64,000 nucleotides of DNA from Porodaedalea pini. Taxonomy: Eukaryota > Basidiomycota > Agaricomycetes > Hymenochaetales > Hymenochaetaceae. Shown here piece after piece: positions 36,701 through 64,000 of this stretch. The first letter of the stretch is position 1, and every line of letters starts with the position of its first letter. The notes under the pieces were generated by a model. That model was given only the letters and a program-made list of their open reading frames with translations, had not been told where the DNA came from and did not search any database. Location of the stretch: assembly GCA_002794775.1 (NCBI GenBank), contig NBAY01000057.1, forward strand, positions 186,001 through 250,000. Reading direction: 5' to 3'. The position numbers and the translations under genes are program-made.

Positions 36701-37204
36701 GACATGAAATGCTACCATGACCGGACAGCAGGGATTTCGGTTGAGTACAAGGCCGGGGACAAGGTTTTCCTTGATGGACGAAACATCAGCACAGATTCGC
36801 CTACAAAGAAACTCGCTGACAAATGGTATGGCCCCTTCAAAATCGTCGACAAGGTGGGAGCAAGTGCGTACAAGCTCAAGCTCCCAAAGCGATGGAAAAA
36901 GGTCCACCCAGTCTTCAACGAGGCCCTGCTAAAGCCTGCCGTCGAACCGTCCTTCGAGAGCCAAAGACAACTAGCACCACCGCCACCTGACATCGTCGAC
37001 AACAAGGAGGAGTACAAGATCGAGGAGGTTCTAGACTCGCGTCTGCACCGAGGGAAACTACAGTACCTTGTCAAGTGGGTTGGATACAACAAACCAACTT
37101 GGCAGCCTGAGATGGACTTCGGCGAGAACGCAAAGGAGGCGATCGCTGAGTTCTATCGAAAACACCCTGGCGCTCCTCGAAAGCTCGACATCCCTCGCCA
37201 ATGA
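33791..37204 (+). pseudogene. pol: Pol polyprotein of gypsy-1 (one frame broken by two internal TGA codons)
   Basis: All parts lie in one frame, -1 relative to Gag, and the open frame extends upstream of 33791. In order: aspartic protease (ALVDSGCTGS); reverse transcriptase with intact YLDD (about 34892-34903) and FFFIKKADKSLRPIQDY; TGA at 35270-35272; RNase H (EADSSNFALGGVLL); integrase zinc finger and core (CDRCQRTK, FVDRFSKQMH, HPQTDGQTEHVNQELEQY); TGA at 36605-36607; chromodomain (EVLDSRLHRGKLQYLVKWVGY). The TGA at 37202 that ends the frame corresponds to CGA in the second copy. The domain order defines a chromovirus-type Ty3/gypsy element. Confidence 0.9.
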
Positions 37205-37285
37205 CTCCGCCCACGCTTCATCGACACCAAGCCAGACGACCTCGATCTTGGTTGGTCAAGATGCCCAACCTTGAGGGGGGGGTAA

Positions 37286-37724
37286 TGTCAGGACTCGAAC
37301 TTTTCCTTTCTTTTATTTTCCTTTTTATCATTTCTTTTCTTTTAATCGATCCTTTTCATTATAATTAATCATCTTTTCAATCATTTCCCACACTCCTTTC
37401 ACATGACCTTCATTCATTCCATTCTGCTCCCTTTATGTAATATTAGACAATGCAGCAACTGGTTCTCACGAGGTGATCACTGTATATAAGGAAGAGGAAT
37501 TGCATCTGAACACCTGTTCTGCTTTTCCTCTTACCTCCGTGACGACCTAGGTGAGACCGCGTCCCCCTCCTGTAGTAGAGTACATTGTATTAATCCTCTT
37601 ACCTCCGTGACGACCTAGCCTGAGTAAAGTGTGTCCCGAGTCCCCACTCGAGTATAGCACGTCCCAGACGACAGTCAGCAGAGGCCTGCCCAGTCCGAGT
37701 CGTCTCCCGGACTCCCGCCTAACA
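37286..37724 (+). repeat. 3' LTR of gypsy-1
   Basis: It matches the 5' LTR except for five transitions. It is preceded by the polypurine tract and followed by the second CAAGT target duplication. Confidence 0.93.
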
Positions 37725-43292: not shown

Positions 43293-45635
43293 ATGAGTCG
43301 TCATTTGCAATCTGAAAGTCCTAATCAATCCGATACCCTGAGCATGCAAGCCAATCCTGGAAGACTCTTCATGCAGGTACCCAGGGGAGACTCGACGTTG
43401 TCATCATCCCAGAGACAGAAAGGACCTGAAGAATTTATCGTAAAGGAGTTCAGTCGTGAAAACCACCTTAAGCCAAATGGGTCAAATTTCTATGTGTGGA
43501 AGAAGATTCAACAGGTCATCATGACAAGCCATAAGTGGATCGGACATATCCTTGGGACTATTCCATGCCCGTCGGAAGACAAGGTTGAGGAATTGGAGAC
43601 CTGGAAGAATGTTGATAGTCTGGCAGTCGAACAATTAGCTCTGAACATGGATCATACTCTCTATGGTGAAATTGTGACTGATGGGAATACTGCTGCTGAG
43701 CTATGGAAGTCGATAGATGCATGCTTTGGAAAACACTCTGTATTGGCCTAGACTACTGCAAATGCCAGACTGGACTCAAAGCACATCCGCTCTGGAGAAT
43801 CTCTAAAGGATCACATTACCGAGCTTCATCAACTTCATTCTCAATACCTTAACACTGGAGAGGTTCTCCAGATGTCTGAGTGGCAAACAATTATTCTGAA
43901 TTCTCTCAAAGATCATGAGCAATGGAGGCAACTCACACTTTATGGAGACACTATAAGCAATCCGGAAGAACTCATCTCGATGCTTGAACTGAGGGAAGCA
44001 AGAGGTTATGCTGCATCAAAGAAACCCAAAGCCGCATTGCAGTCTCAAACATGTGTACAGTCAAAGTTCAACAGCAGAGGACACACCAAGCAAAGCTATC
44101 CAACACCTTGAGGAGACGGTGTGTTATGCACTAACTGCAAACGGGGTATTCACACCATTCAGAACTGCTGGGCTCCAGGGGGAGGTGCAGTTCACTGACG
44201 CCCTCCATACTACTGAGTACCTGAGGACATGTTAGACAAGGAAAGGGAAAACCTCTTGGCTCAAATACAAGCCATAGACAATAAACATACCCGACGGACA
44301 GCCATTTCTACCCAACCTCAGGCAACAATCGAGGAGATCCCCAATGATGTAGAAACCTATAGCCGACAGAAGGCTCTAGTTGTCACCAGTTGTGAGACCA
44401 TCAAAGCTGGTAGCTGGTTACTTGACTCTGGAGCGTCATCACACATGACCAACAACAGGTCATGTTTCGCAACCTACACAGATATCTGCACAATAGAAAT
44501 TCAAACCGTTAGGAAGAACCAGTTACTTTGTGCTATTGGAAAGGGCTCAGTACTCATCCATTTCACACATGGTGGGGCCACATTCAATATTGCAATGGAC
44601 GGCGTCCTATATGTCCCAGAACTCACTCACAACCTTATATCGCTGGCCAGGCTCACCAGTTGCGGCATCAAGGTTGTATTTGAAGATGACAAGTGTACAT
44701 TGTCAAGGGATAGAATCGCGTTTGCTGAAGCGTACACCCTGGAGAATCAATGGGTGATGAAAATGAGAGTTCAAGGAGAGAACGTGCATATTGTCACAAC
44801 ATGCAAAGACACAGTCAAACCTCTCATTGTGTGGCATCGACACTTGGCTCATCTTGGGGAACAATGAGTAAGGGAACTCGAGCATTGCGGCATTGTAACG
44901 GGATTATCAATCCAGCAAGAGAGGGAAAGTACAAAGTGCAAGATGTGTGTACTGTCTAAGATGACCACAACCTCTGCTGCTTCCTGTGAGCTGCAGGCCA
45001 TGCATCCAGGTGACATAATCCACTCTGATCTTGAGTTCATCGGTCACGCATCCTTCACTGGAGCCACCATTTCCCTAAAATTCATTGACGAATTCTCGAA
45101 CTTCGTATGGTGCCACGCAATCCAATCAAAAGACGCTGAGACTATACTTGTCCATTGGAAAACTCTATGCTCAGAGTTCCATACACAACATTCTATTGCT
45201 ATAAAGGCCCTTCACACAGATAATGGTACTGAATACGTGAACAATGCAATGGAGTCCTTCAATAAGGAAAATGGCATACAACACCACCTAACTGTCCCAT
45301 ATCACCATGAAATGAATGGCCGTGCAGAACAAATGAACCGGACAGGATCTGATGCAGTTTGCAAAATGCTCCATTTTGCAAACCTCAGTGACATTTATTG
45401 GGCCAAAGCATATGATACCTTTACATACATCCATAACAGATGTGGTACGTCTGCCATCGCTACTAAATTGCCTTTTGAAGTCCTTGTTGGACGGAAACCC
45501 GCTGTTGATCATATAAGGATCTTCAGATCAACCACGTACATGTGAATTGCTCCCAAAAAGCAGAAGAAACTCGATCCAAAATCTGCAAAGTTTATTCTTG
45601 TCGGCTATCGCGACGATGCCACTTATTGCTTAATT
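43293..45635 (+). pseudogene. Ty1/copia element: gag, protease and integrase part
   Basis: A single frame is broken by a TAG at 43749 and by several TGA codons (44109, two near 44190-44215, 44865 and 45543). In order it encodes a Gag region (LKPNGSNFYVWKKIQQVI), a CCHC knuckle (CTNCKRGIHTIQNC), an aspartic protease (SWLLDSGASSHM), the integrase HHCC and core (IVWHRHLAHLG, CKMCVLSK, HTDNGTEYVN) and the start of the linker to reverse transcriptase (KFILVGYRDDATYCLI). Integrase before reverse transcriptase defines the copia order. The frame is cut at 45635 by the palindromic element and resumes at 59171. Confidence 0.9.
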
Positions 45636-45715
45636 CACTTCAGGCTACCCTTCTGAGCAGACCAAGTAGGTCTATTTGTACACACAACTAATTGACCATT
45701 TAGGTATTGAGCCTG

Positions 45716-45925
45716 GGCGTGCCCAATCTGCTGGGCACTCCCAGTGGGTGCGGGTTGGGTGTGCCCAATTTTTTTTACTGTGGGAAAGTTGGGTGCACCC
45801 AGATCATTTGGGCACTCCCAACTGGGCCTGCCCAGTTTTGGGGCACACCCAGTGGGAGTGCCCTGGGAGTGCCCAGATATGTCACTGTCACTGACTGTCT
45901 GGGGGACTTTTGGGTGCACCCAGTT
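45716..45925. repeat. Subterminal repeat cluster, left arm, outer
   Basis: Repeated short units such as TGGGAGTGCCCA and GGGTGCACCCA in both orientations, starting about 80 bp inside the element end. Mirror copy at 58883-59092. Such clusters near transposon ends are often transposase-binding sites; here that is inference. Confidence 0.6.
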
Positions 45926-47024
45926 TTATTTTTTGCTATAAATTCTGGGATCATCACAAATGCTGTAATTTTTAGTTTTAGACCCTAAACCTTGGTGTAT
46001 TTGTTACTATTTAGACTATGAAAAATTGACTGCATGAGTTGACCCTTGCTGTGAGCTATGTTAGGGTTGGTAATGATCTAGGATAGAGATTGGTATCATT
46101 TTATCTATGATTATGACTGTAATTTATAGCTATATCCTACTGTTGAGCTCAGATCATCATGGTACATAGTACAAAAGGCTCATGTGACAATCAAAATATG
46201 CAAAATGCAGAAAATATATGGAATATATGAGAGACCTATGGTATATGTTGTTCAAAATTATAGATAGACTTTACCATATAACATTCAAGACAAAGAATTG
46301 AAACAATAAAACAAATTATGTTTGACCTGATGAACTGAAGGAAACAGATAGTGGATATGTACAAGTAAACTAGATACTTGTACTGTAGAAATTAAGCAAA
46401 TAATGATAAGAAAAAAGGATAGAATGAAGAACCAGCTCTTATCAAATCAAGAACTCAGCTGACTAGCCTTCTTGCAGCAATGATCAAGCTCATTGTTCTA
46501 ACAGTATATGCTTGTATCACTCTAGATAATAAACAGAGAGGCTATGCAAGGGTTGAATAGGGTTCAAGCAGGAACTCAATACCAAGATGGCAGTGCTTGA
46601 ACCATAAGTTCTAACTAAACTGTGCTCCACTCCTTCTGGAAACTGTGCAGTCTGCCATTCTGATCAACAGTGTGTCAAATGACATCTTCCCTACAACATG
46701 AGGCCCATCATCTCAGTGCCACTGGTACATATTATGCATCAACATGAACCAATTCATGTCTGCAAACCTATTGGATCCATTTGTGCCTCACTGGGGTAAA
46801 CCCTATCACTGTACAGCTGCCAGAATATCTGGCTGATTGCCTGTAGCTGGCACATGTCCCTCCATTCAGTGCATGTTTCATCTTCTCATTCTGGCAGCCC
46901 ACACTCACATCTGTCCCACCAAATATGACTAAAGAATTTTCAAGAAGTATACAGGTGTGATCCAACTGTCTGACCTGCAAAAGACTATCTGACTACTGCA
47001 CGATGTGGATGATCCTATTGTTTG

Positions 47025-47360
47025 GGAGCCCCCAACTGGGAGTGCCCAATTATCTGGGAGCCCCCAACTGGGAGTGCCCAATTATCTGGGAGCCCCCAAC
47101 TAGGAGTGCCCAATTATTTGGGAGCCCCCAACTGGGAGCCCCCAATTATTTAGGAGGCCCCAACTGGGAGCCCCCAACTAGGAGTGCCCAATTATTTGGG
47201 AGCCCCCAATTGGGAGTGCCCAATAATTGGAACTGCCCAATTGGGAGCACCCAATAATTTGGGAGTGCCCAATTGGGAACACCCAATTATTTGGGAGTGC
47301 CCAGTTGGGAGTGCCCAGGGAGTGCCCAATATTTGGAAATGCCCAGTTGGGTCTCTTTTT
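47025..47360. repeat. Short tandem repeat array, left arm, inner
   Basis: About ten imperfect units of GGGAGCCCCCAACTGGGAGT followed by GCCCAATTAT, period about 30 nt. They use the same core as the outer cluster. Mirror copy at 57448-57783. Confidence 0.7.
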
Positions 47361-47977
47361 TATTCCTGCCCAGGAATCTTTTTTATTTTATTTTTGAAAT
47401 AGAAATCATTATGTCATGAAAATTAGAATGTGTCTAGAATTGAAGCCTTGGTGATTCTACAGAGAATTTCTTCATCCTCACCTGTTGCCTCCAGTTTTGC
47501 AAGTGTGGCACCAGACTGGCCCTTGGAGATCTCCTATGATGAAAGTTTTGATGTGATGTATTGTAAGATGGATGCAACTGTCTTACTCTTCACTGGTGAT
47601 ACACAACACTTACTCAGATCAAAATATCCTTCTGTGTATAACAAATGAATGACTGAGACAGATACAACAGATACAACAAGAGACAGACCCTTCTCCTTGT
47701 CCACATGCAGGATGACAACAATCTCTTTCCTTCTGACACAGATCAACCTTTGAATCAAATGAGTTCACCTGCAAGAAAGTTCCAAGAATAGAATCATCCC
47801 TTCAATGTTGTCACATTCAAGCTGCATACATCATGAATGACAGTCAGTATTAAGTCGCAATGGCCTCTGACCCAATGCTCAAGCCTGAGTTGGACAAATA
47901 GTTTGAATCTGTACTCCATGCGGTACTCCATACACTATTGGTGCTGTTATTGAAATTGTAGATAATAATAGCTGCAT

Positions 47978-48788
47978 GATGCTGCACTCAGCATCTTGAG
48001 CATTGATTCACCAAGCAAGAGTGGCAAGTACAAAAAGCACAGTGTTGGCTCTTTGAGTAGGACAGGCGTCGGGTCAGTCAACAATGATGTCCTTGACGTA
48101 AAGCGGAAAAAAGTAATGTTCATTGTGCACTGAGCGCTGCGTGCTAATGATCGTGAGAGGTGGACCTGCAAACAAGAACGGCAATGATCCTGGGGGATCA
48201 ATAGCAGGGCGGCATACTTTGCACGGCTGCACCATCTGGCAGCATACCAGCATGCCTGAGCTCTGTTCGCAAACCTTGCCTTCATCTGCGTACGGCCGAA
48301 TTCCGGACTGTTTGCATCGGGCAAGGGTGGACTCAGGAAGTGCTTCGCGTCGCGCGCTGCAGATTGTTGGCAACAAACCAAACGCGATCGTTGATTCACC
48401 AAGTGAGAGTGGCGAGTACGACAGGCATAGTGTCGGTTTTTTGAGCGGAACGGGCATCGGTCAGACGACAATGGTGTCTGTGACGCAAGCATGGAAGAAA
48501 GGAATGTTTGCTGTGCACTGAGAGCCGCAATGACCGCGAGAGGTGGAGCAACAAACGAGAATGGCAACGATCCTGGGGATCGATAGTGGGGCAGCACGCT
48601 CCGCACGGCCGCATCACCTGGCAGCGTCGCAGCACGTCTGAGGTACTCCGTTTGCCATCCCTGCCTTCGTCTGCGTGCGGCCAGACTTCAGACTTGCGCC
48701 TGCATCTGACAAGGGCGGACTCGGGAAGTGCCTCGCGTTGTGCACTGCAGAAACCGGAGACGATCCAAATGCGATCGTACCCTCGCTT
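47978..48788 (-). repeat. Tandem duplication in the left arm
   Basis: Two diverged units of about 400 bp, each containing an ACGATCGC(A/G)TTTGG start, a GCACTTCC(C/T)GAGTCC block and a CCAGGATC(G/A)TTGCC block. They lie next to the cyclin fragment and may derive from its 3' region. Mirror copy at 56020-56830. Confidence 0.6.
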
Positions 48789-48822
48789 TTCGCGTGTTGC
48801 ATGATGCCCGAGTTCTCTCCCC

Positions 48823-49535
48823 ATGGTGGCACCGCGCTCTTGACGATCCAGAGACGCCACCCAAGCGCATCGCCCAGTGCACGTTCGCAGTGTCCAACCT
48901 CCCACGGTAGGAGACCGGAGAGCTTTTCCCATGCTCGATTCGAATAGCATCGATCCTGTAAGAATTTAAATACCAGAATGAGTGCGGCGAGGAGAGTGCG
49001 GCGAGGGAAGAGGTGGCAGCGGTGTGAGCGGGTTTGCCGGAATCTTACGACGCTCGTCGTTAGACTGCCTTTGAATCTGCATCTGTTGAGTTAATGGAAG
49101 CGAAGCATCCATCGGGAGGACTGTCGACACACACGATGCGACCTATTCGACATCGGTTCCGTTGGAAGACCGCAGAGGTTGGATGTGTCCAAAGAGGTAT
49201 TCGCCTGACTCCCGTGCCTCTCCTCTCCTCCACGAGCTCCGACGCTTCCTCCCGCACCACTTCGATGTAGCAGAGCGCCGACTGCAGGACGCTGCATCTC
49301 GTGCGTGAACGGCGGAGAACACCCTGTGCGAATGTTTTGATCGGAACGAGATCCTTCTCGGACACAACGATTGCGTCGCGTTCGCCGAAGTGCTCGATGA
49401 GAAAGACGGATAGGAAAACGGCTGACGTCGATGTTGAAGCGTGTGGAGTGTCGGCGGGGGCAGAAGGAAGGGGCGAGGAATGCGTCGTAGGTGAACAGGG
49501 CGAGGGAAGTTGAACCGCTCGACATTTTCGGTAGA
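48823..49535 (-). pseudogene. Captured cyclin-box gene fragments (B), left arm
   Basis: Mirror image of 55273-55985, with the same content and broken frames. See that entry for the peptide evidence. Confidence 0.55.
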
Positions 49536-49545
49536 CGCCTTGCTC

Positions 49546-50483
49546 GGTGTTGAAGTCGTGAGGTCAATGATCAGGTCGTAATACTGAGGTTTCTCCATGA
49601 AGATTGCGTCGGTCGTGCATGCGATCCAGCCACGTCCCGTCTTGCTTTCGCGTTCGAGGCGCTGCAAGTTGCTTAGTGTCACCATGCCGAGTACTGACGG
49701 GCTTTCTGGAGATGGCTCGTCCTTGCTCGGCGCTCCAAAAAGCCCTTGTATTGGCGTCCCGAGTGCATGGCCTCTGGACGCCATATGGTGCTCGCGACAG
49801 AGGTCTGATGCGATCCATGCGAGCACACCTGCAACTTCAACCGGCGGGAGCGTGAAGATCAGGATGCGTCGGCGTGAGAGCACAAATTTGTAGAGCGAAA
49901 GCGACGATTGGACGCATAATTCTGCACAGGGCGTCAGAGCAAGTAGAATAAAAACAGAAACAGACGTACGCCATCGAGCTCGTCGCTCCAGCTAGACCAT
50001 AAGTCTGCAGATGCCTTCTCGTCCACCCTGTGTGACTCAAACCACATGCGCGCGGGGGCGAAGTCCGCCTCCGTCAAGTCCCCCGCAGCACCCAGCCCCA
50101 ACAAATCTTCGTCACCTTCCTGCTCCCGAGCATCCGCTTCTGCGTAGATCCCATCCGCCAGAGCACGTAGCGCAGCGACGTGTAGCCACGGCCGCGGGCG
50201 AGGGGCGGTCTTGAGGAGGATACCGAGCGACGCCAGCCTAAACCCGCGATGCGCCTGAGCACGCGTTGGTCGTCGTCGAAAGACGGCGAGCCCACTACGG
50301 GCGCCATGTGAGAGATATACAGGGTCACGCTCTACGAGCTGAAGTCCACTTGGGAGCACGCTGAACTCGACGCCGTCGAGGCTGAGGTTGTCATCGGCCT
50401 TCGACGCCCAGTCGATGACATTTCCCTTCGTAGGGTGGAATGAGGCGTGGAATATTGCGACTGGCAGACTGTCCATTGACATC
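49546..50483 (-). pseudogene. Captured LCHN-type DENN gene fragment, left arm
   Basis: Mirror image of 54325-55262. The long open frame in this arm (50563-49934) encodes the same residues as in the right arm. Confidence 0.6.
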
Positions 50484-50862
50484 AGTTCCGTCGGAAGGCC
50501 GCAAGGTTGGATGTGTCCTAAGAGGTATTCGCCCTTGACTCCCGTGCCTCTCCTCTCCTCCACGAGCTCCGACGCTTCCTACCGCACCACTTCGATGTAG
50601 CAGAGCGCCGACTGCAGGATGCTGCATCTCGTGCGTGAACGGTGGAGAACCCCTTGTGCGAATGTTTTGATCGGAACGAGATCCTTCTCGGACACAACGG
50701 TTGCGTCGCGTTCGCCGAAGTGCTCGGTGAGAAAGGCGGATGGGAAAACGGCTGACGTCGATGTTGAAGCGTGTGGAGCGTCGGCGGGAGCAGAAGGAAG
50801 AGGCGAGGAATGCGTTCAAGGTGAACAGGGCGAGGGAAGTTGAACCGCTCGACGATTTCGGT
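50484..50862 (-). pseudogene. Captured cyclin-box gene fragment (A), left arm
   Basis: Mirror image of 53946-54324; it is also a direct duplicate of fragment B in the same arm. Confidence 0.5.
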
Positions 50863-51225
50863 AGATGTCGCCAGTCCCTCCCTGCCTGACAATGACGAGA
50901 GAGAGAACGGCGACGTCGCGACCGATGATGCAGCCACGGACCGGCTTGCACTTTCTCGCCGGTGCGGCAGAGACGGTAGCAAGAGTGACCAGCAGAAAGG
51001 AGAAGGCGAACGGTTGGGAATGAGTACACCCTGCTTCATCGGGAAGTCCTGCTCGTCGTTTCCGCCAGAGAAGCGAAAGACGTAGCCTCTGAACTCATCA
51101 CCGAGCGAGTCACCAGGGATGCCTGGGACATCTTCTTGCCGTGGAAGATGCGGTAACGACGCTCATCGTCGATGTCGATCGTCTTTTGCTGGCCCATCGC
51201 CGGGTCAGTGATGTCAAAACTTCAT
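50863..51225 (-). pseudogene. Captured ribosomal protein eS6 gene fragment, left arm
   Basis: Mirror image of 53583-53945, with the same frameshifts. Confidence 0.75.
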
Positions 51226-52343
51226 GGACGGTGGTGTCTTGCAGAGCTCGTCGTGTTCTGCCCCTTCAGGCAAGCAAAAAAAAATGCTGAAAAGTAATAT
51301 TTAGTGTATTCAAATAGTTTTCATGAATTTGTTTTTGCTTACCTTGAGTGTGTGGCCGGTGGGACACCTGAGCTCGTTGTTGAAGGTGAAGACGAAACGA
51401 CACGAACAACGACGACGCGTCGGTTGTATTGCCTGATTTGGCCGATCGACGCGTCTCAAACAAGTAATCAAAGCATTCCGTGATCTTCGGATATCTTGAA
51501 GGTCTCAGCTGTCGGCCTCAAAACATTTCTACGGACGCGTTTAAAAATACAAAAAAATATGGAATAGTTTTAGAATGTATTTATCTCTAGAATAGCCAAG
51601 AACTACGCGTCCAACGCGTTTTTTTATGGTGTCATAAATACAACAGCAATCCTCACATGTAGCACTAGGCCTCCAGAGGCATACACCAAAGTAAAATATG
51701 TTCTGAAAGGCCTGACACCTATTCTGTCATGAAGTAAGTATTACACTATGTATGTATGCAAGGGTTCAAGCCAATCAGACAAGAATTGACTTCATAATAG
51801 AGAAGGAGGTGACTTCATGAGATCTCCTGAATCTGAGTGTTTTGCATATCCTGTTCCCATTTTTTACTTTGATGGCACATAAAATATTGGGCATATCCTT
51901 AATAGATAGTTCTATGTTTCTGTAAATTTACAAGTTTCCAGCCTCAGTGGTTGGAGCTGGGTGAATTGCACAACATCGAAAATCATGGGTTTAAGAAGTT
52001 CAGAGAAAGTACAGATGGGTGACAAAAGTGACCGTGATTGTGGGTTTTACCTGTATTTTGATAGTTTCTCAGTCAAATTTTGTCCGTTTTCCTTGAAAAA
52101 AATTGAGCACAATTTGGCATACATACCTGATGTCCCTGTGAAATATTATTGCAATCAGAGATAAAATGAGTCAGTGGTGAGGGAAACAGAGGCGAGAGGG
52201 CATGTCTCATTTCAGTACCTTTTCAGGGCAAATTTTGGTGCTTTTCCCCTTCTGTAGCTAGAACAACAGAGAGATGAGCCCTGAAAATTTACATGGATAT
52301 AATATAGTATATTTTATACCTGATATGATGTTTTAAGATTTTT

Positions 52344-52464
52344 TGAAGGTGTTTGTGGCAAGTTATTGGCCATGGATTTGAAATCTCTCAAAATCTGCCT
52401 GTTTTCAGGCTATATGCATGTCCATCCTCAATACACTATATGCCAGCACACGTAGAATGCCCCT
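52344..52464. other. Unique central spacer of the palindrome
   Basis: About 121 bp that is not inverted-repeated. Complementarity is perfect up to 52329/52479, has one mismatch at 52330/52478, continues to 52343/52465 and then fails. It would form the loop if the arms paired. No coding or known motif was seen. Confidence 0.8.
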
Positions 52465-53582
52465 AAAAATCTTAAAAAATCATATCAGGTATAAAATATA
52501 CTATATTATATCCATGTAAATTTTCAGGGCTCATCTCTCTGTTGTTCTAGCTACAGAAGGGGAAAAGCACCAAAATTTGCCCTGAAAAGGTACTGAAATG
52601 AGACATGCCCTCTCGCCTCTGTTTCCCTCACCACTGACTCATTTTATCTCTGATTGCAATAATATTTCACAGGGACATCAGGTATGTATGCCAAATTGTG
52701 CTCAATTTTTTTCAAGGAAAACGGACAAAATTTGACTGAGAAACTATCAAAATACAGGTAAAACCCACAATCACGGTCACTTTTGTCACCCATCTGTACT
52801 TTCTCTGAACTTCTTAAACCCATGATTTTCGATGTTGTGCAATTCACCCAGCTCCAACCACTGAGGCTGGAAACTTGTAAATTTACAGAAACATAGAACT
52901 ATCTATTAAGGATATGCCCAATATTTTATGTGCCATCAAAGTAAAAAATGGGAACAGGATATGCAAAACACTCAGATTCAGGAGATCTCATGAAGTCACC
53001 TCCTTCTCTATTATGAAGTCAATTCTTGTCTGATTGGCTTGAACCCTTGCATACATACATAGTGTAATACTTACTTCATGACAGAATAGGTGTCAGGCCT
53101 TTCAGAACATATTTTACTTTGGTGTATGCCTCTGGAGGCCTAGTGCTACATGTGAGGATTGCTGTTGTATTTATGACACCATAAAAAAACGCGTTGGACG
53201 CGTAGTTCTTGGCTATTCTAGAGATAAATACATTCTAAAACTATTCCATATTTTTTTGTATTTTTAAACGCGTCCGTAGAAATGTTTTGAGGCCGACAGC
53301 TGAGACCTTCAAGATATCCGAAGATCACGGAATGCTTTGATTACTTGTTTGAGACGCGTCGATCGGCCAAATCAGGCAATACAACCGACGCGTCGTCGTT
53401 GTTCGTGTCGTTTCGTCTTCACCTTCAACAACGAGCTCAGGTGTCCCACCGGCCACACACTCAAGGTAAGCAAAAACAAATTCATGAAAACTATTTGAAT
53501 ACACTAAATATTACTTTTCAGCATTTTTTTTTGCTTGCCTGAAGGGGCAGAACACGACGAGCTCTGCAAGACACCACCGTCC

Positions 53583-53945
53583 ATGAAGTTTTGACATCAC
53601 TGACCCGGCGATGGGCCAGCAAAAGACGATCGACATCGACGATGAGCGTCGTTACCGCATCTTCCACGGCAAGAAGATGTCCCAGGCATCCCTGGTGACT
53701 CGCTCGGTGATGAGTTCAGAGGCTACGTCTTTCGCTTCTCTGGCGGAAACGACGAGCAGGACTTCCCGATGAAGCAGGGTGTACTCATTCCCAACCGTTC
53801 GCCTTCTCCTTTCTGCTGGTCACTCTTGCTACCGTCTCTGCCGCACCGGCGAGAAAGTGCAAGCCGGTCCGTGGCTGCATCATCGGTCGCGACGTCGCCG
53901 TTCTCTCTCTCGTCATTGTCAGGCAGGGAGGGACTGGCGACATCT
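53583..53945 (+). pseudogene. Captured ribosomal protein eS6 gene fragment, right arm
   Basis: The segment begins ATGAAGTTT and, allowing frameshifts, reads [29 protein letters not shown], then [45 protein letters not shown] and [19 protein letters not shown]. These are the ordered blocks of the N-terminal half of eukaryotic eS6, a 40S ribosomal subunit protein. Several single-base frameshifts break it, for example right after the third codon and after GVLIPN. It cannot make eS6 and must be a copy of the host gene carried inside the element. The flanks change directly into unrelated cyclin sequence at about 53946. Confidence 0.82.
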
Positions 53946-54324
53946 ACCGAAATCGTCGAGCGGTTCAACTTCCCTCGCCCTGTTCACCTTGAACGCATTC
54001 CTCGCCTCTTCCTTCTGCTCCCGCCGACGCTCCACACGCTTCAACATCGACGTCAGCCGTTTTCCCATCCGCCTTTCTCACCGAGCACTTCGGCGAACGC
54101 GACGCAACCGTTGTGTCCGAGAAGGATCTCGTTCCGATCAAAACATTCGCACAAGGGGTTCTCCACCGTTCACGCACGAGATGCAGCATCCTGCAGTCGG
54201 CGCTCTGCTACATCGAAGTGGTGCGGTAGGAAGCGTCGGAGCTCGTGGAGGAGAGGAGAGGCACGGGAGTCAAGGGCGAATACCTCTTAGGACACATCCA
54301 ACCTTGCGGCCTTCCGACGGAACT
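53946..54324 (+). pseudogene. Captured cyclin-box gene fragment (A), right arm
   Basis: Frame-allowed peptides include [40 protein letters not shown] and ALCYIEVVR, matching the first helices of cyclin-box proteins of the PCL-like type in Agaricomycetes. A stop (TAG) follows EVVR. The fragment is duplicated directly at 55273-55660, with point differences. Together the two copies flank the DENN fragment. Confidence 0.5.
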
Positions 54325-55262
54325 GATGTCAATGGACAGTCTGCCAGTCGCAATATTCCACGCCTCATTCCACCCTACGAAGGGAAATGTCATCGACTGG
54401 GCGTCGAAGGCCGATGACAACCTCAGCCTCGACGGCGTCGAGTTCAGCGTGCTCCCAAGTGGACTTCAGCTCGTAGAGCGTGACCCTGTATATCTCTCAC
54501 ATGGCGCCCGTAGTGGGCTCGCCGTCTTTCGACGACGACCAACGCGTGCTCAGGCGCATCGCGGGTTTAGGCTGGCGTCGCTCGGTATCCTCCTCAAGAC
54601 CGCCCCTCGCCCGCGGCCGTGGCTACACGTCGCTGCGCTACGTGCTCTGGCGGATGGGATCTACGCAGAAGCGGATGCTCGGGAGCAGGAAGGTGACGAA
54701 GATTTGTTGGGGCTGGGTGCTGCGGGGGACTTGACGGAGGCGGACTTCGCCCCCGCGCGCATGTGGTTTGAGTCACACAGGGTGGACGAGAAGGCATCTG
54801 CAGACTTATGGTCTAGCTGGAGCGACGAGCTCGATGGCGTACGTCTGTTTCTGTTTTTATTCTACTTGCTCTGACGCCCTGTGCAGAATTATGCGTCCAA
54901 TCGTCGCTTTCGCTCTACAAATTTGTGCTCTCACGCCGACGCATCCTGATCTTCACGCTCCCGCCGGTTGAAGTTGCAGGTGTGCTCGCATGGATCGCAT
55001 CAGACCTCTGTCGCGAGCACCATATGGCGTCCAGAGGCCATGCACTCGGGACGCCAATACAAGGGCTTTTTGGAGCGCCGAGCAAGGACGAGCCATCTCC
55101 AGAAAGCCCGTCAGTACTCGGCATGGTGACACTAAGCAACTTGCAGCGCCTCGAACGCGAAAGCAAGACGGGACGTGGCTGGATCGCATGCACGACCGAC
55201 GCAATCTTCATGGAGAAACCTCAGTATTACGACCTGATCATTGACCTCACGACTTCAACACC
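54325..55262 (+). pseudogene. Captured LCHN-type DENN gene fragment, right arm
   Basis: An open stretch (54245-54874) contains LPVAIFHASFHPTKGNVIDW, LDGVEFSVLPSGLQLVERD, GLAVFRRRPTRAQAHRGFRL and ASLGILLKTAPRPRPWLHV, the N-terminal uDENN-type blocks of LCHN/DENND11-like proteins. A canonical intron-like segment (GTACGT...TGTGCAG, about 48 nt) follows ELDG. After it, in a shifted frame, come SLSLYKFVLSRRRILIFTLP, PPVEVAGVLAWIASDLC and TTDAIFMEKPQYYDLIIDLT. DENN proteins act on Rab GTPases in membrane traffic. The kept intron indicates capture at the DNA level. The fragment lacks the true 5' and 3' ends and has at least one frameshift. Confidence 0.62.
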
Positions 55263-55272
55263 GAGCAAGGCG

Positions 55273-55985
55273 TCTACCGAAAATGTCGAGCGGTTCAACT
55301 TCCCTCGCCCTGTTCACCTACGACGCATTCCTCGCCCCTTCCTTCTGCCCCCGCCGACACTCCACACGCTTCAACATCGACGTCAGCCGTTTTCCTATCC
55401 GTCTTTCTCATCGAGCACTTCGGCGAACGCGACGCAATCGTTGTGTCCGAGAAGGATCTCGTTCCGATCAAAACATTCGCACAGGGTGTTCTCCGCCGTT
55501 CACGCACGAGATGCAGCGTCCTGCAGTCGGCGCTCTGCTACATCGAAGTGGTGCGGGAGGAAGCGTCGGAGCTCGTGGAGGAGAGGAGAGGCACGGGAGT
55601 CAGGCGAATACCTCTTTGGACACATCCAACCTCTGCGGTCTTCCAACGGAACCGATGTCGAATAGGTCGCATCGTGTGTGTCGACAGTCCTCCCGATGGA
55701 TGCTTCGCTTCCATTAACTCAACAGATGCAGATTCAAAGGCAGTCTAACGACGAGCGTCGTAAGATTCCGGCAAACCCGCTCACACCGCTGCCACCTCTT
55801 CCCTCGCCGCACTCTCCTCGCCGCACTCATTCTGGTATTTAAATTCTTACAGGATCGATGCTATTCGAATCGAGCATGGGAAAAGCTCTCCGGTCTCCTA
55901 CCGTGGGAGGTTGGACACTGCGAACGTGCACTGGGCGATGCGCTTGGGTGGCGTCTCTGGATCGTCAAGAGCGCGGTGCCACCAT
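55273..55985 (+). pseudogene. Captured cyclin-box gene fragments (B), right arm
   Basis: The first part (55273-55660) duplicates fragment A and reads [20 protein letters not shown], then [20 protein letters not shown] without the stop seen in A. After about 150 bp the cyclin sequence continues in one frame: LAALILVFKFLQDRCYSNRA, WEKLSGLLPWEVGHCERALG, DALGWRLWIVK. This order fits a cyclin box (helices 2 to 5). Its likely source is a host cyclin gene. The frames do not join, so it is a broken copy. Confidence 0.6.
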
Positions 55986-56019
55986 GGGGAGAGAACTCGG
56001 GCATCATGCAACACGCGAA

Positions 56020-56830
56020 AAGCGAGGGTACGATCGCATTTGGATCGTCTCCGGTTTCTGCAGTGCACAACGCGAGGCACTTCCCGAGTCCGCCCTTGTC
56101 AGATGCAGGCGCAAGTCTGAAGTCTGGCCGCACGCAGACGAAGGCAGGGATGGCAAACGGAGTACCTCAGACGTGCTGCGACGCTGCCAGGTGATGCGGC
56201 CGTGCGGAGCGTGCTGCCCCACTATCGATCCCCAGGATCGTTGCCATTCTCGTTTGTTGCTCCACCTCTCGCGGTCATTGCGGCTCTCAGTGCACAGCAA
56301 ACATTCCTTTCTTCCATGCTTGCGTCACAGACACCATTGTCGTCTGACCGATGCCCGTTCCGCTCAAAAAACCGACACTATGCCTGTCGTACTCGCCACT
56401 CTCACTTGGTGAATCAACGATCGCGTTTGGTTTGTTGCCAACAATCTGCAGCGCGCGACGCGAAGCACTTCCTGAGTCCACCCTTGCCCGATGCAAACAG
56501 TCCGGAATTCGGCCGTACGCAGATGAAGGCAAGGTTTGCGAACAGAGCTCAGGCATGCTGGTATGCTGCCAGATGGTGCAGCCGTGCAAAGTATGCCGCC
56601 CTGCTATTGATCCCCCAGGATCATTGCCGTTCTTGTTTGCAGGTCCACCTCTCACGATCATTAGCACGCAGCGCTCAGTGCACAATGAACATTACTTTTT
56701 TCCGCTTTACGTCAAGGACATCATTGTTGACTGACCCGACGCCTGTCCTACTCAAAGAGCCAACACTGTGCTTTTTGTACTTGCCACTCTTGCTTGGTGA
56801 ATCAATGCTCAAGATGCTGAGTGCAGCATC
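56020..56830 (+). repeat. Tandem duplication in the right arm
   Basis: Mirror of 47978-48788; two diverged units of about 400 bp, directly downstream of the cyclin fragment. Confidence 0.6.
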
Positions 56831-57447
56831 ATGCAGCTATTATTATCTACAATTTCAATAACAGCACCAATAGTGTATGGAGTACCGCATGGAGTACAGA
56901 TTCAAACTATTTGTCCAACTCAGGCTTGAGCATTGGGTCAGAGGCCATTGCGACTTAATACTGACTGTCATTCATGATGTATGCAGCTTGAATGTGACAA
57001 CATTGAAGGGATGATTCTATTCTTGGAACTTTCTTGCAGGTGAACTCATTTGATTCAAAGGTTGATCTGTGTCAGAAGGAAAGAGATTGTTGTCATCCTG
57101 CATGTGGACAAGGAGAAGGGTCTGTCTCTTGTTGTATCTGTTGTATCTGTCTCAGTCATTCATTTGTTATACACAGAAGGATATTTTGATCTGAGTAAGT
57201 GTTGTGTATCACCAGTGAAGAGTAAGACAGTTGCATCCATCTTACAATACATCACATCAAAACTTTCATCATAGGAGATCTCCAAGGGCCAGTCTGGTGC
57301 CACACTTGCAAAACTGGAGGCAACAGGTGAGGATGAAGAAATTCTCTGTAGAATCACCAAGGCTTCAATTCTAGACACATTCTAATTTTCATGACATAAT
57401 GATTTCTATTTCAAAAATAAAATAAAAAAGATTCCTGGGCAGGAATA

Positions 57448-57783
57448 AAAAAGAGACCCAACTGGGCATTTCCAAATATTGGGCACTCCCTGGGCACTCC
57501 CAACTGGGCACTCCCAAATAATTGGGTGTTCCCAATTGGGCACTCCCAAATTATTGGGTGCTCCCAATTGGGCAGTTCCAATTATTGGGCACTCCCAATT
57601 GGGGGCTCCCAAATAATTGGGCACTCCTAGTTGGGGGCTCCCAGTTGGGGCCTCCTAAATAATTGGGGGCTCCCAGTTGGGGGCTCCCAAATAATTGGGC
57701 ACTCCTAGTTGGGGGCTCCCAGATAATTGGGCACTCCCAGTTGGGGGCTCCCAGATAATTGGGCACTCCCAGTTGGGGGCTCC
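57448..57783. repeat. Short tandem repeat array, right arm, inner
   Basis: Mirror of 47025-47360. Where compared in detail the units are identical to the left-arm copy. Confidence 0.7.
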
Positions 57784-58882
57784 CAAACAATAGGATCATC
57801 CACATCGTGCAGTAGTCAGATAGTCTTTTGCAGGTCAGACAGTTGGATCACACCTGTATACTTCTTGAAAATTCTTTAGTCATATTTGGTGGGACAGATG
57901 TGAGTGTGGGCTGCCAGAATGAGAAGATGAAACATGCACTGAATGGAGGGACATGTGCCAGCTACAGGCAATCAGCCAGATATTCTGGCAGCTGTACAGT
58001 GATAGGGTTTACCCCAGTGAGGCACAAATGGATCCAATAGGTTTGCAGACATGAATTGGTTCATGTTGATGCATAATATGTACCAGTGGCACTGAGATGA
58101 TGGGCCTCATGTTGTAGGGAAGATGTCATTTGACACACTGTTGATCAGAATGGCAGACTGCACAGTTTCCAGAAGGAGTGGAGCACAGTTTAGTTAGAAC
58201 TTATGGTTCAAGCACTGCCATCTTGGTATTGAGTTCCTGCTTGAACCCTATTCAACCCTTGCATAGCCTCTCTGTTTATTATCTAGAGTGATACAAGCAT
58301 ATACTGTTAGAACAATGAGCTTGATCATTGCTGCAAGAAGGCTAGTCAGCTGAGTTCTTGATTTGATAAGAGCTGGTTCTTCATTCTATCCTTTTTTCTT
58401 ATCATTATTTGCTTAATTTCTACAGTACAAGTATCTAGTTTACTTGTACATATCCACTATCTGTTTCCTTCAGTTCATCAGGTCAAACATAATTTGTTTT
58501 ATTGTTTCAATTCTTTGTCTTGAATGTTATATGGTAAAGTCTATCTATAATTTTGAACAACATATACCATAAGTCTCTCATATATTCCATATATTTTCTG
58601 CATTTTGCATATTTTGATTGTCACATGAGCCTTTTGTACTATGTACCATGATGATCTGAGCTCAACAGTAGGATATAGCTATAAATTACAGTCATAATCA
58701 TAGATAAAATGATACCAATCTCTATCCTAGATCATTACCAACCCTAACATAGCTCACAGCAAGGGTCAACTCATGCAGTCAATTTTTCATAGTCTAAATA
58801 GTAACAAATACACCAAGGTTTAGGGTCTAAAACTAAAAATTACAGCATTTGTGATGATCCCAGAATTTATAGCAAAAAATAA

Positions 58883-59092
58883 AACTGGGTGCACCCAAAA
58901 GTCCCCCAGACAGTCAGTGACAGTGACATATCTGGGCACTCCCAGGGCACTCCCACTGGGTGTGCCCCAAAACTGGGCAGGCCCAGTTGGGAGTGCCCAA
59001 ATGATCTGGGTGCACCCAACTTTCCCACAGTAAAAAAAATTGGGCACACCCAACCCGCACCCACTGGGAGTGCCCAGCAGATTGGGCACGCC
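58883..59092. repeat. Subterminal repeat cluster, right arm, outer
   Basis: Mirror of 45716-45925, ending about 80 bp from the element end. Confidence 0.6.
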
Positions 59093-59170
59093 CAGGCTCA
59101 ATACCTAAATGGTCAATTAGTTGTGTGTACAAATAGACCTACTTGGTCTGCTCAGAAGGGTAGCCTGAAG

Positions 59171-60324
59171 TGCTTAATTGACAGAGATACGAGAAAGATT
59201 CAATACTCTCGTGAGATAATTTTCAATGATTCTAAGAACTTCCAGATTCCTGATCAACCGGAAGACATACTAGAGAATGCTCCGTCTACACACCACAATA
59301 CACCCATGGTTCTTCACCACTCCAAATGTCTACAACAACAACATGTCAACTTATCAACAGAACGATGTGTTATAGCAGGGATATTTCTGCCACACAGCTC
59401 CAAAGAGGCACTTCACTCCCACCACTTGATGGAGTGGCACAAAGCTATGGTATACAAAGTCAGCAAACTCACAGAAATAGATTGTTGAGAAGTTGTCAAA
59501 CACCCCAGCAACCAACACGTCATCCATGACATGTGGATTTTCAACATAAAGGAGGAGGCTGATGGGTCCCTTGATTATAGAGCATGATGGGTGGCTCATG
59601 GGGACTTACAGATCCCAGGACTAGAGTTTGACGAAACTTTTGCCACATCTGGAGACTTCATTGCTGCAAAAGTTGTCACTGTGCTTAGTTCGCACCCGCA
59701 CGGTCACCTAGTCACTATTGACATCAACTCTGCATACCTTCACAGCCCTCTGTCAGAACCCAACCTTGTTGTTGACTACCCACCTGGCTTCTCTGTCAAA
59801 GGCTTCAATAGGCCTTGCTGTCTTCTCAAACGTGCTCTCTATGGACTTCGCCAAGGTGCTCGGGCATGGTCAATACACTTCAACAGCAAGCTTTTGGTCC
59901 TTGGCTACAAACACTGCATGTCTGCCCCTAGTGTCTATGCCCGATCAGACGTCGAGGGGGAGTCAATAATTGCGACACATGTTGATGACTGCATGGCTTA
60001 CTGCATTTCGACGTCTGACAAGCGCGACACCGAAGCAGACAGGTTTAAATCTGAAATAGGCTCCCATTTCCAATTCAAGGAGAAGGATGCACAAAAGCGA
60101 GCTAATCTACTGGGTATGACCATGTTCTATAATGAATCCAAAGGTTACGTCAAACTGTCTATTACACTCAAGATTGAATGTGCTCTAGACAAGTACAATC
60201 TCAAGGGTGCCTCGTCTTACCGGACACCGATGGCAAGGGACGCGCTCACTCTATTTGATAAAGACACCTTGCAGCCACCCGATAACCCACCGTGGCCCTA
60301 TGCGCAACTGGTTGGGGAACTGCT
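59171..60324 (+). pseudogene. Ty1/copia element: reverse transcriptase part
   Basis: The frame continues that of 43293-45635, with the repeated codons TGC TTA ATT (CLI) followed by DRDTRKIQYSREIIF. Reverse-transcriptase blocks follow: HLVTIDINSAYLHSPLSEPN, CCLLKRALYGLRQGARAW and THVDDCMAYC (the catalytic VDD, 59976-59990). TGA codons at 59486 and near 59585 break the frame. It ends at 60324 inside the sequence VGELL, where the gypsy-2 LTR begins. RNase H and the 3' LTR lie beyond that insertion, outside the window. Confidence 0.88.
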
Positions 60325-60749
60325 TGTTAGGCGGGAGTCTGGGAGACGACTCGGACTGGGCAGGCCTCAGCTGACTGTCGTCTGGGATGTGTTATACTCG
60401 AGTGTAGACTCGGGACACGCTCACTCAGGCTAGGTCATCGCGGAGGTAAGAGGATTAATACAAGTCTAAACTAATACAAGGGGGACGAGTCTCACCTAGG
60501 TCGTCGCGGAGGTAAGAGGAAAAGCAGAACAAGGAGTTCATGCGATTCCTGAGACCTTATATAGCGACGACCGTGAGACTATATTACCTAACATTACATA
60601 ACGAGTGGGAATGGAACAAATGAAGGTCATGTGAAGGGAGTGTGGGAAGTGATTGGAAAGATGATTAAAGATAATAAGAAAGAGCGGTTAAAAGGAAAGG
60701 AAAAAGGGAAAGGGGAAATAAAGAAAGGGTGAAAGTTCGAGTTCTGACA
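60325..60749 (-). repeat. 3' LTR of gypsy-2
   Basis: A 425-bp LTR with TGT...ACA ends, similar to the gypsy-1 LTR but with indels. It keeps the internal 24-nt direct repeat (60430-60453 and 60496-60519, one to two differences). The polypurine tract (TTGAGGGGGGGGTAA on the minus strand) lies just to its right. Confidence 0.9.
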
Positions 60750-63700
60750 TTACCCCCCCCTCAAGGTTGGGCGTCCCGACCAACCAAGATTGTGGTCGTC
60801 TGACTCAGTGTCGATGAAGCGTGGGCAAAGTCGTTGGCGAGGAATTTCGAGTTTTCGAGGGGCGCCGGGGTGTTTTCGATAGAATTCAGTGATCGCCTCC
60901 TTTGCGTTCTCGCCAAAGTCCATCTCGGGCTGCCACATCGGTTCGTTGTAGCCAACCCACTTGACGAGGTATTGTAGCTTCCCTCGGTGCAGACGCGAGT
61001 CTATGACTTCCTCGATCTCGTACTCTTCCTCGTTGTCGACGATGTCAGGTGGCAGCGGCAGCTGTTGTTTCTGACTTTTGAAGGACAGTTCAACTGCGGG
61101 TTTCAGCAGGGCCTCATTGAAGACCGGGTGGACCTTTTTCCATCGCTTTGGGAGCTTGAGCTTGTATGCGCTCGCTCCCACCTTGTCGACGATCTCGAAG
61201 GGACCATACCACTTGTCCGCTAGCTTCTTCGTCGGTGAGTCTGTACTGATGTTTTGCCCATCGAGGAAAATCTTGTCTCCAGCCTTGTACTCCACTGAAG
61301 CCCCTGCTGTCCGGTCGTGGTAGCGCTTCATGTCCTCTGCTGCCTTGACCAGATTGTCCTTTGCTACACGGTGAGTCTCCTTGATGTGCTTCGCGAATTC
61401 TTCCGCCGACATGTTGGCAGAGGAAGTTCTTACGGTGTCGAAGCTCTTAGGGTGACGTCCGGTGTTCGCGTAGAAGGGTGACATTTTCGTCGCCGAGTGT
61501 TCGCGGTTATTGTAAGCGAACTCTGCGAGAGGGAGCCAGTCTTTCCAGTCTGATTGCCAATGGTTAACGAAGAGTCGGAGATACTGTTCGAGCTCTTGGT
61601 TGACACGTTCCGTCTGACCATCCGTTTGTGGGTGGTACGCGGTTGACGGGTTGCCTTCGATGTGTAGGAGATTGTACAGCTCCTTCATCATCGACGCATC
61701 GAACTGCGTGCCTCGGTCATGGATGATCTTCTTTGGTAGGCCATGAAGACGGAAGACGTGGTCGTGGTATAACTGAGCCATACCTTCCGCTGACAATTTC
61801 ATCATTGTCGGGATCACATGCATCTGCTTCGAGAACCTGTCTACAAAGACGCAGATCGTGTTGTGTCCCTTGGAGTCCGGGAGCTCTCCGATTAGGTCGA
61901 CCGTGATGATTTCCCAAGGACCTTCAGGGACTGCGTTTGGGTGAAGCGGCCTCGACCTCGACGTTCTTAAGGCTTTCATCCGTTGACAGCGGTCGCATCC
62001 TCAGACATACGCTCAGACATTGGAGAACATTGATGCCCACCAGAAATCGCGACGGACGAGCTCTACTGTCTTCGATGCTCCCGGATGACCGGCGAGTACC
62101 GAGTCATGGCACTCTCGTAACACGGCCTCCTTCATTGTCGACGGAACGTATATCTTGCCTTTCATCTGCCACAACCCGTCGACTTCTGTCATGTTCGTCG
62201 GCCTCTCCGATTCGTCCTGCGCCCTCTGCGCTTCACCCACTCGTTCCACCACCTCATCATGCGATGTTCGCACTACCCCATGGTTCAGCCACTTGTCCTT
62301 GATGAACACAATGCTGTCATTGTCATCCTTGCCCTGATCATAGCCCACCTTGCATGACAGCAAGTCGGCTTTGCCCATCGTCTTCCCTGACTTGTGTTCG
62401 AGGTGGAAGTCGAATTCTTTGAGTTCAGTTCGCCAGCGAGCTTGACGATAGCTCAGCTTCTGCGCTGACCTGAAGTAGGTGAGGTTGGCATGGTCGGACC
62501 AGATTTCGATTTTGTGGCGAGCGCCAAGGAGGTACTGCCGCCACTCCTTGAGCACTGAAATGATTGCGAGCATCTCTTTGTCGTAGATCTCGTAGTTTCG
62601 TTCTGCTGGTTCGAGCGCCTCTGATCTGTAGGCGATCACCCTCCACTTTCCTTCCTGCTTCTGCAACAACACGCCGCCGAGTGCAAAGTTTGACGAGTCC
62701 GCCTCTACGCAGAAAGGGCCTTCGTCGTTGGCGATGGCTAGGACTGGAGGTGAGCAGAGACGTCATCTCAGCTCCTCGAATGCTTCCTGCTGTTCGGTCT
62801 CCCATACCCAGTCCTTCTTGCCTGTTAGCGACGTCAACGGTCAGACCACCTTGCTGTAGTCCTTAATAAACCGTCTCAGCCAGTTTCCCATGCCGAGGAA
62901 CTGTTGCAGCTCCTTGAGGTTTCGTGGGACAGGCCAGTTCGCTATCGCGTCCGTCTTCGCCAGGTCAGCCCTGATTTCGCCGTTGCCAATGATATGACCG
63001 AGGTACTTGACGACTTTGGCATCGAATTCGCACTTCTCCGGCTTCAGGTACAGGCCATTTTCTCGGAGGATCTGGAGTACGCGCCTCGACGTGTCGATAT
63101 GCTCCTCTATGGTTTCTGAGAGGATTAGGATGTCGTTGAGGTATACGATGATCAGGTTGGCATAGATCAGGTCCTTGAAGATATGGTTGACAAAAGCCTG
63201 GAACGTGGCCGGCGCATTGCAAAGGCCAAAGAACATGACCGTTGGTTCGAAGAGGCCCATGTTCGTGCGAAACGCTGCCTTCCATTCGTCACCCTCACGG
63301 ATCCGGATATTGTAGTACCCCCAGCAAAGGTCAAGCTTAGTGATGTACTTCGCTTTCTTGACCTTGTCGACGAGTTCGTCGATGAGAGGAAGGGGATACT
63401 TGTTCTTGATCGTACTGTCATTGAGTTTACGGTAATCCTGGATCGGGCGTAACGATTTGTCAGCTTTCTTAATGAAGAAGAAAGGTGACGCCATGGGTGA
63501 TATTGATCGTCGGATGCGACCAGACTTCAAGTTTTCATCGAGGAAGTCCTTGAGTGACTGTTGCTCCGTCGGCGTGAGCGGGTAGATCTTACAGTCACTC
63601 GGTTTGAAGTCGGGCTTCAAGTCAATGACGTGATCCCAGGGTTGGTGTTCAGGCAGCTTTTTGAAGCCTTTTTCGCTGAAAACGTCGGCATAGTCATTGA

Positions 63701-63992
63701 GGTACGTGGGCCAGGACGCCTTGTCCATTCGCGTCTCACTCACCCTCCTCATCTGTTCCACCACCTCCTTTACCTTGCCTAGGTCTTCCACCGGCTCCCC
63801 CTCGATCGCACATTCCTCTGGACAACGAGTGAATTCAATCGAACCCATTTTCCAGTCGACCTCAGGGTTATGACGTCGAAGCCAGTTGTGTCCCAAGAAT
63901 ATGTTTGATGATGCTAGGGACATTACCGCAAGGACAATCCTTTCCTTGTGGTGGCCGATCATGAGCTTGACTTCGACGTACTCTTCAATCAA
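60750..63992 (-). pseudogene. pol: Pol polyprotein of gypsy-2 (broken)
   Basis: One minus-strand frame is broken by four TGA codons (62841-62843, 62763-62765, 62013-62015, 62001-62003). In order: the end of the protease region (IFLGHNWLRRHNPEVDW), reverse transcriptase with YLND in place of YLDD (63132-63143), RNase H (62672-62013), integrase (FVDRFSKQMHVIPTM, HPQTDGQTERVNQELEQY) and chromodomain (EVIDSRLHRGKLQYLVKWVGY). The loss of a catalytic Asp and the stops show that this copy is dead. The TGA at 62763 is at the same site as the one at 35270 in gypsy-1. Confidence 0.9.
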
Positions 63993-64000
63993 ACCAGCCT

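Follow-up and report, generated by a model that had tools for sequence, protein, structure and literature searches.

According to the available portions of the cited accounts, the Drosophila transposon Galileo, a member of the P superfamily, has a 9,021-bp copy composed of a 4,246-bp and a 4,680-bp repeat and generates 7-8-bp target duplications, and its long inverted repeats enlarge by absorbing internal sequence and foreign inserts (PMC4168063). The repeats within one Galileo copy are 98-100% identical, for which exchange and conversion have been proposed, while chimeric copies have unlike repeats and non-matching flanks (PMC3573991). Among the Kyakuja-Dileera-Zisupton (KDZ) transposons, Kyakuja has CA..TG ends and 7-bp duplications, Zisupton and Dileera have 8-bp duplications (PMC12730594), and the Cryptococcus elements KDZ1-3, which are 9-11 kb in length, have duplications of 8 bp (KDZ1) or 4-8 bp (KDZ2 and KDZ3) (PMC12810828). 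Tetris/Foldback elements of Drosophila, mostly assigned to Mutator, are non-autonomous and consist mostly of long inverted repeats, with tandem repeats inside them, and homogenisation has been suggested (PMC4079207). Host-gene pieces inside a DNA transposon are found in Pack-Mutator-like elements (Pack-MULEs) and gene-capturing Helitrons (PMC6431247). Here we describe a palindromic element in a 64,000-nucleotide stretch of the Porodaedalea pini genome (contig NBAY01000057.1, positions 186,001 to 250,000; hereafter the window). It very likely represents a KDZ-type, Pack-like foldback family whose copies are kept palindromic by arm-to-arm gene conversion. The assembly comprises 53.3 Mb in 201 contigs, and C-numbers refer to contigs.

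The window element and its insertion site

Along the whole window, we checked whether each position x is complementary to position 104808-x. Positions 45636-59172 form a 13,537-bp palindrome with the termini CACTTCAGG...CCTGAAGTG, and outside it the pairing drops to background level. The arm at 45636-52343 (6,708 bp) pairs with 99.97% identity, with two mismatches at 46236 and 52330. A sequence-only reading of the window had described inverted arms of about 6.7 kb, which is confirmed. The same reading took a 121-bp spacer as the centre of the giant palindrome. This spacer does exist, but it belongs to a nested 785-bp palindrome resembling a miniature inverted-repeat transposable element (MITE), which starts with CAGATGGGTGAC and is found, also mirrored, at eight other sites with 81-97% identity (C53, C43, C9, C47, C134, C33, C80, and C14:506657). 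In the window, the nested element takes the place of the family's 345-352-bp spacer, and the arms of relatives stop at the same inner point as the window's left arm (52011). As the centre is a separate element, the arms belonging to the giant element itself are 6,376 bp long. Two such arms account for most of the 13,537 bp, as in a foldback element.

The element interrupts a copia element, the translation of its left flank having been assigned to the copia-type integrase region by reading the residues. A 400-base query made of both flanks joined with one CTTAATT was used to search for the empty site. Aside from the two halves of the window copy, four relatives cross the junction, namely C86:145459 (400/400 bases, 82%), C45:178188 (397 bases, 82%), C50:180151 (77%), and C25:491269 (73%). 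Since these relatives run through the junction uninterrupted, the window element is an insertion, and the target duplication that had been proposed is real. Two repeats, at 34035-37724 and 60325-64000, flank the element in opposite orientation and are 82.7% identical over 3.7 kb.

Features of the giant palindrome and its borders (window coordinates)
Feature	Position	Strand	Remarks
Left target-site duplication CTTAATT (7 bp)	45629..45635	+	Same 7 bp at 59173-59179
Left arm of giant palindrome, 6,376 bp	45636..52011	+	1 mismatch (46236) against 52797-59172
Terminal region common to KDZ-encoding C28:3533-25584	45636..47317	+	Blocks, 92-98%; arm positions 1-636 and 829-1682 align
32-bp minisatellite within arm	47022..47336	+	TRF rows; C66 has 17.7 copies
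Direct repeat, outer copy	49145..49535	+	93.6% to 50475-50865; interval between copies gone in both C66 arms
DENND11 (LCHN-type DENN) fragment	49533..50473	-	Pfam PF09804, E 7.5e-18 and 2.1e-15; intron kept
Direct repeat, inner copy	50475..50865	+	Pairs with 49145-49535
eS6 fragment, frame-broken	50876..51218	-	Pfam PF01092 pieces, E 3e-9
Nested 785-bp palindromic MITE-like element	52012..52796		Own spacer 52344-52464 (121 bp); TA-flanked; eight other genome places
Right arm of giant palindrome, 6,376 bp	52797..59172	-	Mirror copy; captured fragments at 104808-x
Right target-site duplication CTTAATT	59173..59179	+	Copy of 45629-45635; empty site in copia relatives

We then inspected the host-gene pieces in the arms. 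Those of eS6 and of an LCHN-type DENN gene, both named in the sequence-only reading, are recovered by Pfam, while the cyclin piece it also named is a weak claim, its PF08613 match (E 0.041, 14.7 bits) staying under the cut-off of 21 bits. The parent gene of the DENND11 fragment is at C80:42642-43631 and shares 96-97% identity with it. The fragment lacks 49 bp of the parent, which are not intron-like, and retains a GT-AG intron, which excludes mRNA as the source of the capture. The eS6 match is scattered over several frames. With these frames broken and no intact gene seen in the window arm, we rejected the arms as coding units. Another copy, on C121, carries pieces of HSP90 (E 3e-70 and 2.3e-44) and of FAS2 (fatty-acid synthase alpha), the latter comprising ketoacyl synthase and phosphopantetheinyl transferase. 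The FAS2 fragment matches alpha chains having a C-terminal transferase part, a type that we take to be fungal. Facing pairs of the HSP90 fragment are present at 20 sites (40 of the 44 candidates were scored), and C129 and C179 each have it singly. Its 54-bp gap corresponds to a 55-bp gap in the parent gene on C3. As judged from their sequences, the DENND11 and HSP90 fragments are intron-bearing host pieces taken up as DNA, which is the hallmark of a Pack-type element. The eS6, DENND11, HSP90, and FAS2 fragments are all mirrored in both arms.

A foldback family sharing its ends with a KDZ-encoding element

The 26-bp end has 57 matches in the assembly with up to two mismatches. Of these, 11 are single ends, and the others form 23 facing pairs at distances of 10.7-22 kb. 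The 17-bp end CACTTCAGGCTACCCCT has 118 matches with up to one mismatch, the first 100 of which provided the positions used below. The reversed-pattern control gave 0 matches in both cases. Besides its parent gene on C81, the eS6 fragment is present as a (-,+) facing pair at 50 places and singly at seven (113 matches; of the 193 candidates, 150 were scored, and the pairs were tallied by eye). Three of the single places are near contig ends (C38, C19:609923, and C168), and the others are on C129, C179, C54:117229, and C66:185752. C120 and C168 have an identical 500-bp flank, the only such match among the 24 places with flanks read, and this identity points to contigs that are alleles or to a locus that the assembly contains twice. 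Given such duplicated loci, the count of about 50 may be somewhat high. With 50 copies of ~13 kb, the family is estimated to occupy ~1.2% of the genome.

Ten copies besides the one on C28 were read over both arms (window, C66, C69, C29:276057, C120, C144, C19, C121, C45, and C119, the last cut by the contig start), and all ten are palindromic. C69 and C19 each have a long terminal repeat (LTR) element in one arm, and C45 has an insertion near its right end. The midpoints of 13 further pairs were also inspected, and 12 are palindromic. The exception is C3, in which the eS6 and HSP90 pairs are ~3.8 kb wider apart than in relatives, a spacing that suggests interruption by a central insertion. At 21 of the 24 centres examined, the arms stop at ~6374-6376 (window-arm position) around one asymmetric 345-352-bp spacer; the exceptions are C25, which has a different spacer of 443 bp, the window, and the C3 stretch, which shows no palindrome. 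The subfamilies differ by up to ~17% in their alignable parts, while the two arms of each copy are nearly identical. Perfect target duplications were found in 18 of the 25 copies with both ends read. Eleven of them are 7 bp long (window, C19, C121, C14:35156, C29:3849, C35, C42, C45, C37, C51, and C59) and seven are 8 bp long (C66, C69, C28, C29:276057, C120, C144, and C3). The window element had been thought unusual and possibly undescribed. It is indeed a giant inverted repeat with host-gene pieces, but it is no lone oddity, being one of about 50, and because of these copies and the empty site we rejected a one-off rearrangement or an oddity of the assembly.

Artefacts are known to take the form of near-perfect palindromes, and at least one locus is duplicated in the assembly (C120/C168, with the identical 500-bp flank). 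All palindromes might be assembly or library products, either foldback chimeras or the outcome of consensus polishing that equalised the arms. We regard this as highly improbable. In 18 of 25 copies, the left and right flanks differ and yet bear the same 7-8-bp duplication, the empty site is present in four relatives, and the LTR elements of C69 and C19 are in one arm only. Moreover, a 256-bp block in C66, 41 substitutions in C144, and the unlike arms of C141 demonstrate that the assembly keeps arms apart.

We scanned all 50 stop-to-stop segments of at least 60 aa from the arm and centre against Pfam (10 segments at E up to 1 and 40 at E up to 0.1) and found no transposase domain, in agreement with the sequence-only reading. 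The window copy does not encode a KDZ transposase, as is expected for a non-autonomous copy, and we do not class it as a coding member. An autonomous partner of KDZ, hAT, MULE, or CACTA type had been suggested as a search target. The element at C28:3533-25584 is 22 kb long and has the same ends and an 8-bp duplication. Its 4-kb inverted repeats are 98.3% identical and have blocks in common with the outer 1.68 kb of the window arm, and its 14-kb interior contains an open 246-aa frame with a KDZ domain (E 2.4e-60). The nine other C28 segments scanned, covering part of its frames, have no Pfam match above cut-off. On these features, the C28 element is likely the autonomous partner. A possible second one spans 29.6 kb on C2 (501266-530822); it is bounded by the same 17-bp ends, and positions 524049-524513 within it match KDZ. 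None of the remaining KDZ matches in the genome is linked to such ends among the end places listed. We also considered a CACTA/EnSpm element, which the CACT start and CAC..GTG ends of the family resemble, and rejected it because the duplications are 7-8 bp rather than 3 bp and the partner is a KDZ element.

The duplication length alone would also suit other transposases, as Galileo makes duplications of 7 or 8 bp (PMC4168063) and hAT elements usually make 8 bp, with a fungal lineage making 7 bp (PMC12730594). The ends could then be moved by a P/Galileo, hAT, or Mutator enzyme, with the KDZ gene of C28 as a passenger. This is improbable, as that gene is enclosed by the inverted repeats of the C28 element, which has the family's ends, and the second end pair, on C2, also surrounds a KDZ match. 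Furthermore, no non-KDZ transposase, including P and THAP types, was matched in the 10 C28 segments scanned, which are part of its frames.

Our preferred reading is thus a non-autonomous cut-and-paste DNA transposon with the ends of a KDZ transposon. The family comprises about 50 giant foldbacks of ~11-15 kb before nested insertions, and nearly all of each body is one inverted repeat around a ~345-bp spacer. Copies with good ends would probably depend for movement on a KDZ transposase supplied in trans, for example by the C28 element. The arms combine the terminal region of the KDZ element with pieces of host genes acquired as genomic DNA. Foreign DNA, be it the arm of another copy, other ends, or host-gene pieces, may enter one arm via ectopic exchange or repair. 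Gene conversion, presumably through repair of a break or gap with the other arm as template, would then copy such one-arm changes (substitutions, deletions, captured fragments, and new ends) to the opposite arm and restore symmetry. In this way each copy would stay a near-perfect palindrome while the subfamilies diverge.

Mirrored and one-arm changes

The conversion step is proposed because of the counts of mirrored and one-arm changes. Both arms of each copy were aligned to relatives, and private substitutions were counted only in columns where all other arms agree. The last 60 bp per arm and the first 40 bp of C45 were dropped, the minisatellite block was included, and the right arm of C45, cut at the insertion, was excluded from the reference set for other copies. 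The ratio of mirrored to one-arm substitutions is 30:1 for the window, 23:2 for C66, 35:2 for C69, 9:1 for C29, 10:4 for C120, 23:1 for C19, and 21:0 for C45. C144 and C121 were compared with each other only; they share 62 mirrored columns, which make one set, and have 40 and 0 one-arm substitutions, respectively. Within C144, the 40 one-arm substitutions all fall in the outer 3.0 kb and none in the inner 3.2 kb, while the mirrored ones number 33 and 29, respectively (Fisher p 3e-8). This is the pattern predicted by a recent conversion tract across the inner half. As a separate observation, 28 of 39 polarised one-arm differences in C144 are G>A or C>T, which suggests deamination or decay resembling repeat-induced point mutation since the last homogenisation.

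Larger changes are mirrored as well. In C66, the interval between two 393-bp direct repeats is deleted in both arms. C86 has an inner body of ~3.2 kb in common with C121 and C144 (97.6-97.9%), but in both arms its outer sequences differ from theirs and are 74% identical to the end of the C28 element; its two outer arms are identical over the 2,207 bp read. The total arm differences are two in the window, one in C121 (at the spacer edge), 41 substitutions in C144, and a 256-bp repeat block in C66. No differences remain outside the spacer edges in C121 and C45, and the 12 in C19 are all close to the minisatellite. For the window, C66, C69, C29, and C120 taken together, 7 of 12 such differences are in the outer 150 bp (binomial p 3e-9, in a test chosen after the data were seen).

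The main rival to piecemeal homogenisation is that the entire palindrome is regenerated from a single arm, at each jump or ahead of it, either by hairpin or foldback replication or by abortive gap repair with template switching. Several copies do have almost no arm differences (two in the window and one in C121), as a fresh copy would show. However, the one-arm differences of C144 are confined to its outer half at similar mirrored counts in the two halves (33 and 29), an asymmetric spacer is inherited across subfamilies, and a hybrid with unlike arms exists on C141. We therefore consider whole-arm rebuilding unlikely, in view of the C144 tract and of the spacer's inheritance, though it may act as well.

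Several observations weigh against a KDZ-type family kept palindromic by conversion. The palindromes encode no KDZ protein, and Galileo-type P elements likewise give 7-8-bp duplications (PMC4168063). Three of the 25 copies have imperfect duplications (6 bp in C40 and 6/7 matches in C20 and C49), and four have none (C14:367716, C25, C112, and C86); the missing duplications would fit ectopic exchange, by analogy with chimeric Galileo copies (PMC3573991). The degraded single-ended copy at C14:146846 has no near-perfect palindrome in the stretch read, and C144 retains its 40 one-arm differences. When nearest relatives were sought, the partner arm was closest for 10 of 16 arms in the outer 344 bp (two ties, four closer elsewhere) and for 17 of 22 arms in the inner region (four ties, one closer elsewhere). 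These exceptions fall in groups of copies less than 1% apart, including the duplicated pair C120/C168. Finally, the arms of C141 (38000-52700) are only ~83% alike. The right one belongs to the window's subfamily (94.8% to C69), the left one is closer to another subfamily (90.7% to C120), and neither a left end nor a duplication was found there. From this arm composition, C141 is read as an unhomogenised hybrid of two subfamilies.

Silencing, significance, and comparison with known systems

The host genome has matches to RNA-dependent RNA polymerase and Argonaute, and in one DENND11 block 468 of 565 bp are in exact runs of at least 21 nt common with the parent gene. These make silencing of parent genes via long double-stranded RNA possible, and long hairpin RNA from the arms could feed it. 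A bolder idea is that the palindrome is kept because it pays. Read-through of either arm would yield a kilobase hairpin RNA with pieces of essential host genes (eS6, HSP90, and fatty-acid synthase), small RNAs directed against the element would hit host genes too, and conversion would keep the hairpin perfect, so that host genes shield the element like hostages. We give this idea little credence. Separately, a partial Argonaute (Piwi) match is repeated at eleven places (C93:26473, C179:2766, C28:85959, C28:112014, C51:238896, C3:1526494, C56:160403, C17:131658, C6:1078525, C10:367581, and C98:56586). Ten of the eleven align to model positions 164-282, and most are in a 179-aa frame. The repetition suggests a multi-copy and perhaps mobile Argonaute-like gene.

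In chromosomes, long perfect palindromes are regarded as unstable. Despite this presumed instability, about 50 palindromes of ~11-15 kb have been inherited, moved, and kept symmetric. The family lets conversion between inverted repeats be studied in a natural setting, where mirrored versus one-arm mutations serve as a clock and tracts are directly readable. It also shows repeated capture of host genes into both arms, and if the arms are transcribed, it provides a test of whether transposons turn host genes into targets or shields of RNA silencing.

Compared with known systems, as far as the available portions of their accounts describe them, the family resembles Galileo in its foldback form, long inverted repeats, 7-8-bp duplications, and chimeric copies. 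Different from this family, Galileo has a P-type transposase, giant palindromes are exceptional there whereas they are the norm here, and host-gene capture is not described in those portions. Tetris/Foldback elements belong to another transposase group and have 8-10-bp duplications, and their available description includes no captured host genes. Their repeats are presumably far shorter than those of the fungal family. In Pack-MULEs, gene pieces lie between the inverted repeats, while in the fungal family they are part of the repeats themselves and mirrored in both. The likeness to KDZ transposons consists of the KDZ domain in the related coding element and the 7- or 8-bp duplications. The inverted repeats, however, are 139-241 bp in Cryptococcus and absent in Kyakuja, but here they are 4 kb long in the coding element and 5-6.6 kb long in the non-coding copies. 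The family thereby links the KDZ superfamily, with short or no inverted repeats in the literature available, to the foldback form.

No giant palindromic KDZ family was found in the open-access literature searched. Foldback growth through exchange is already known from the available accounts of Galileo, in which inserts also pass from one repeat to the other. Relative to Galileo as described there, the KDZ association, the mirrored host-gene pieces, the inherited spacer, and the measured conversion tract are found in the fungal family only. As far as the open-access literature searched shows, the new points are its KDZ association and scale, its full palindromes with an inherited spacer, which are the rule, the capture of host genes in mirrored form, and direct evidence for conversion in tracts.

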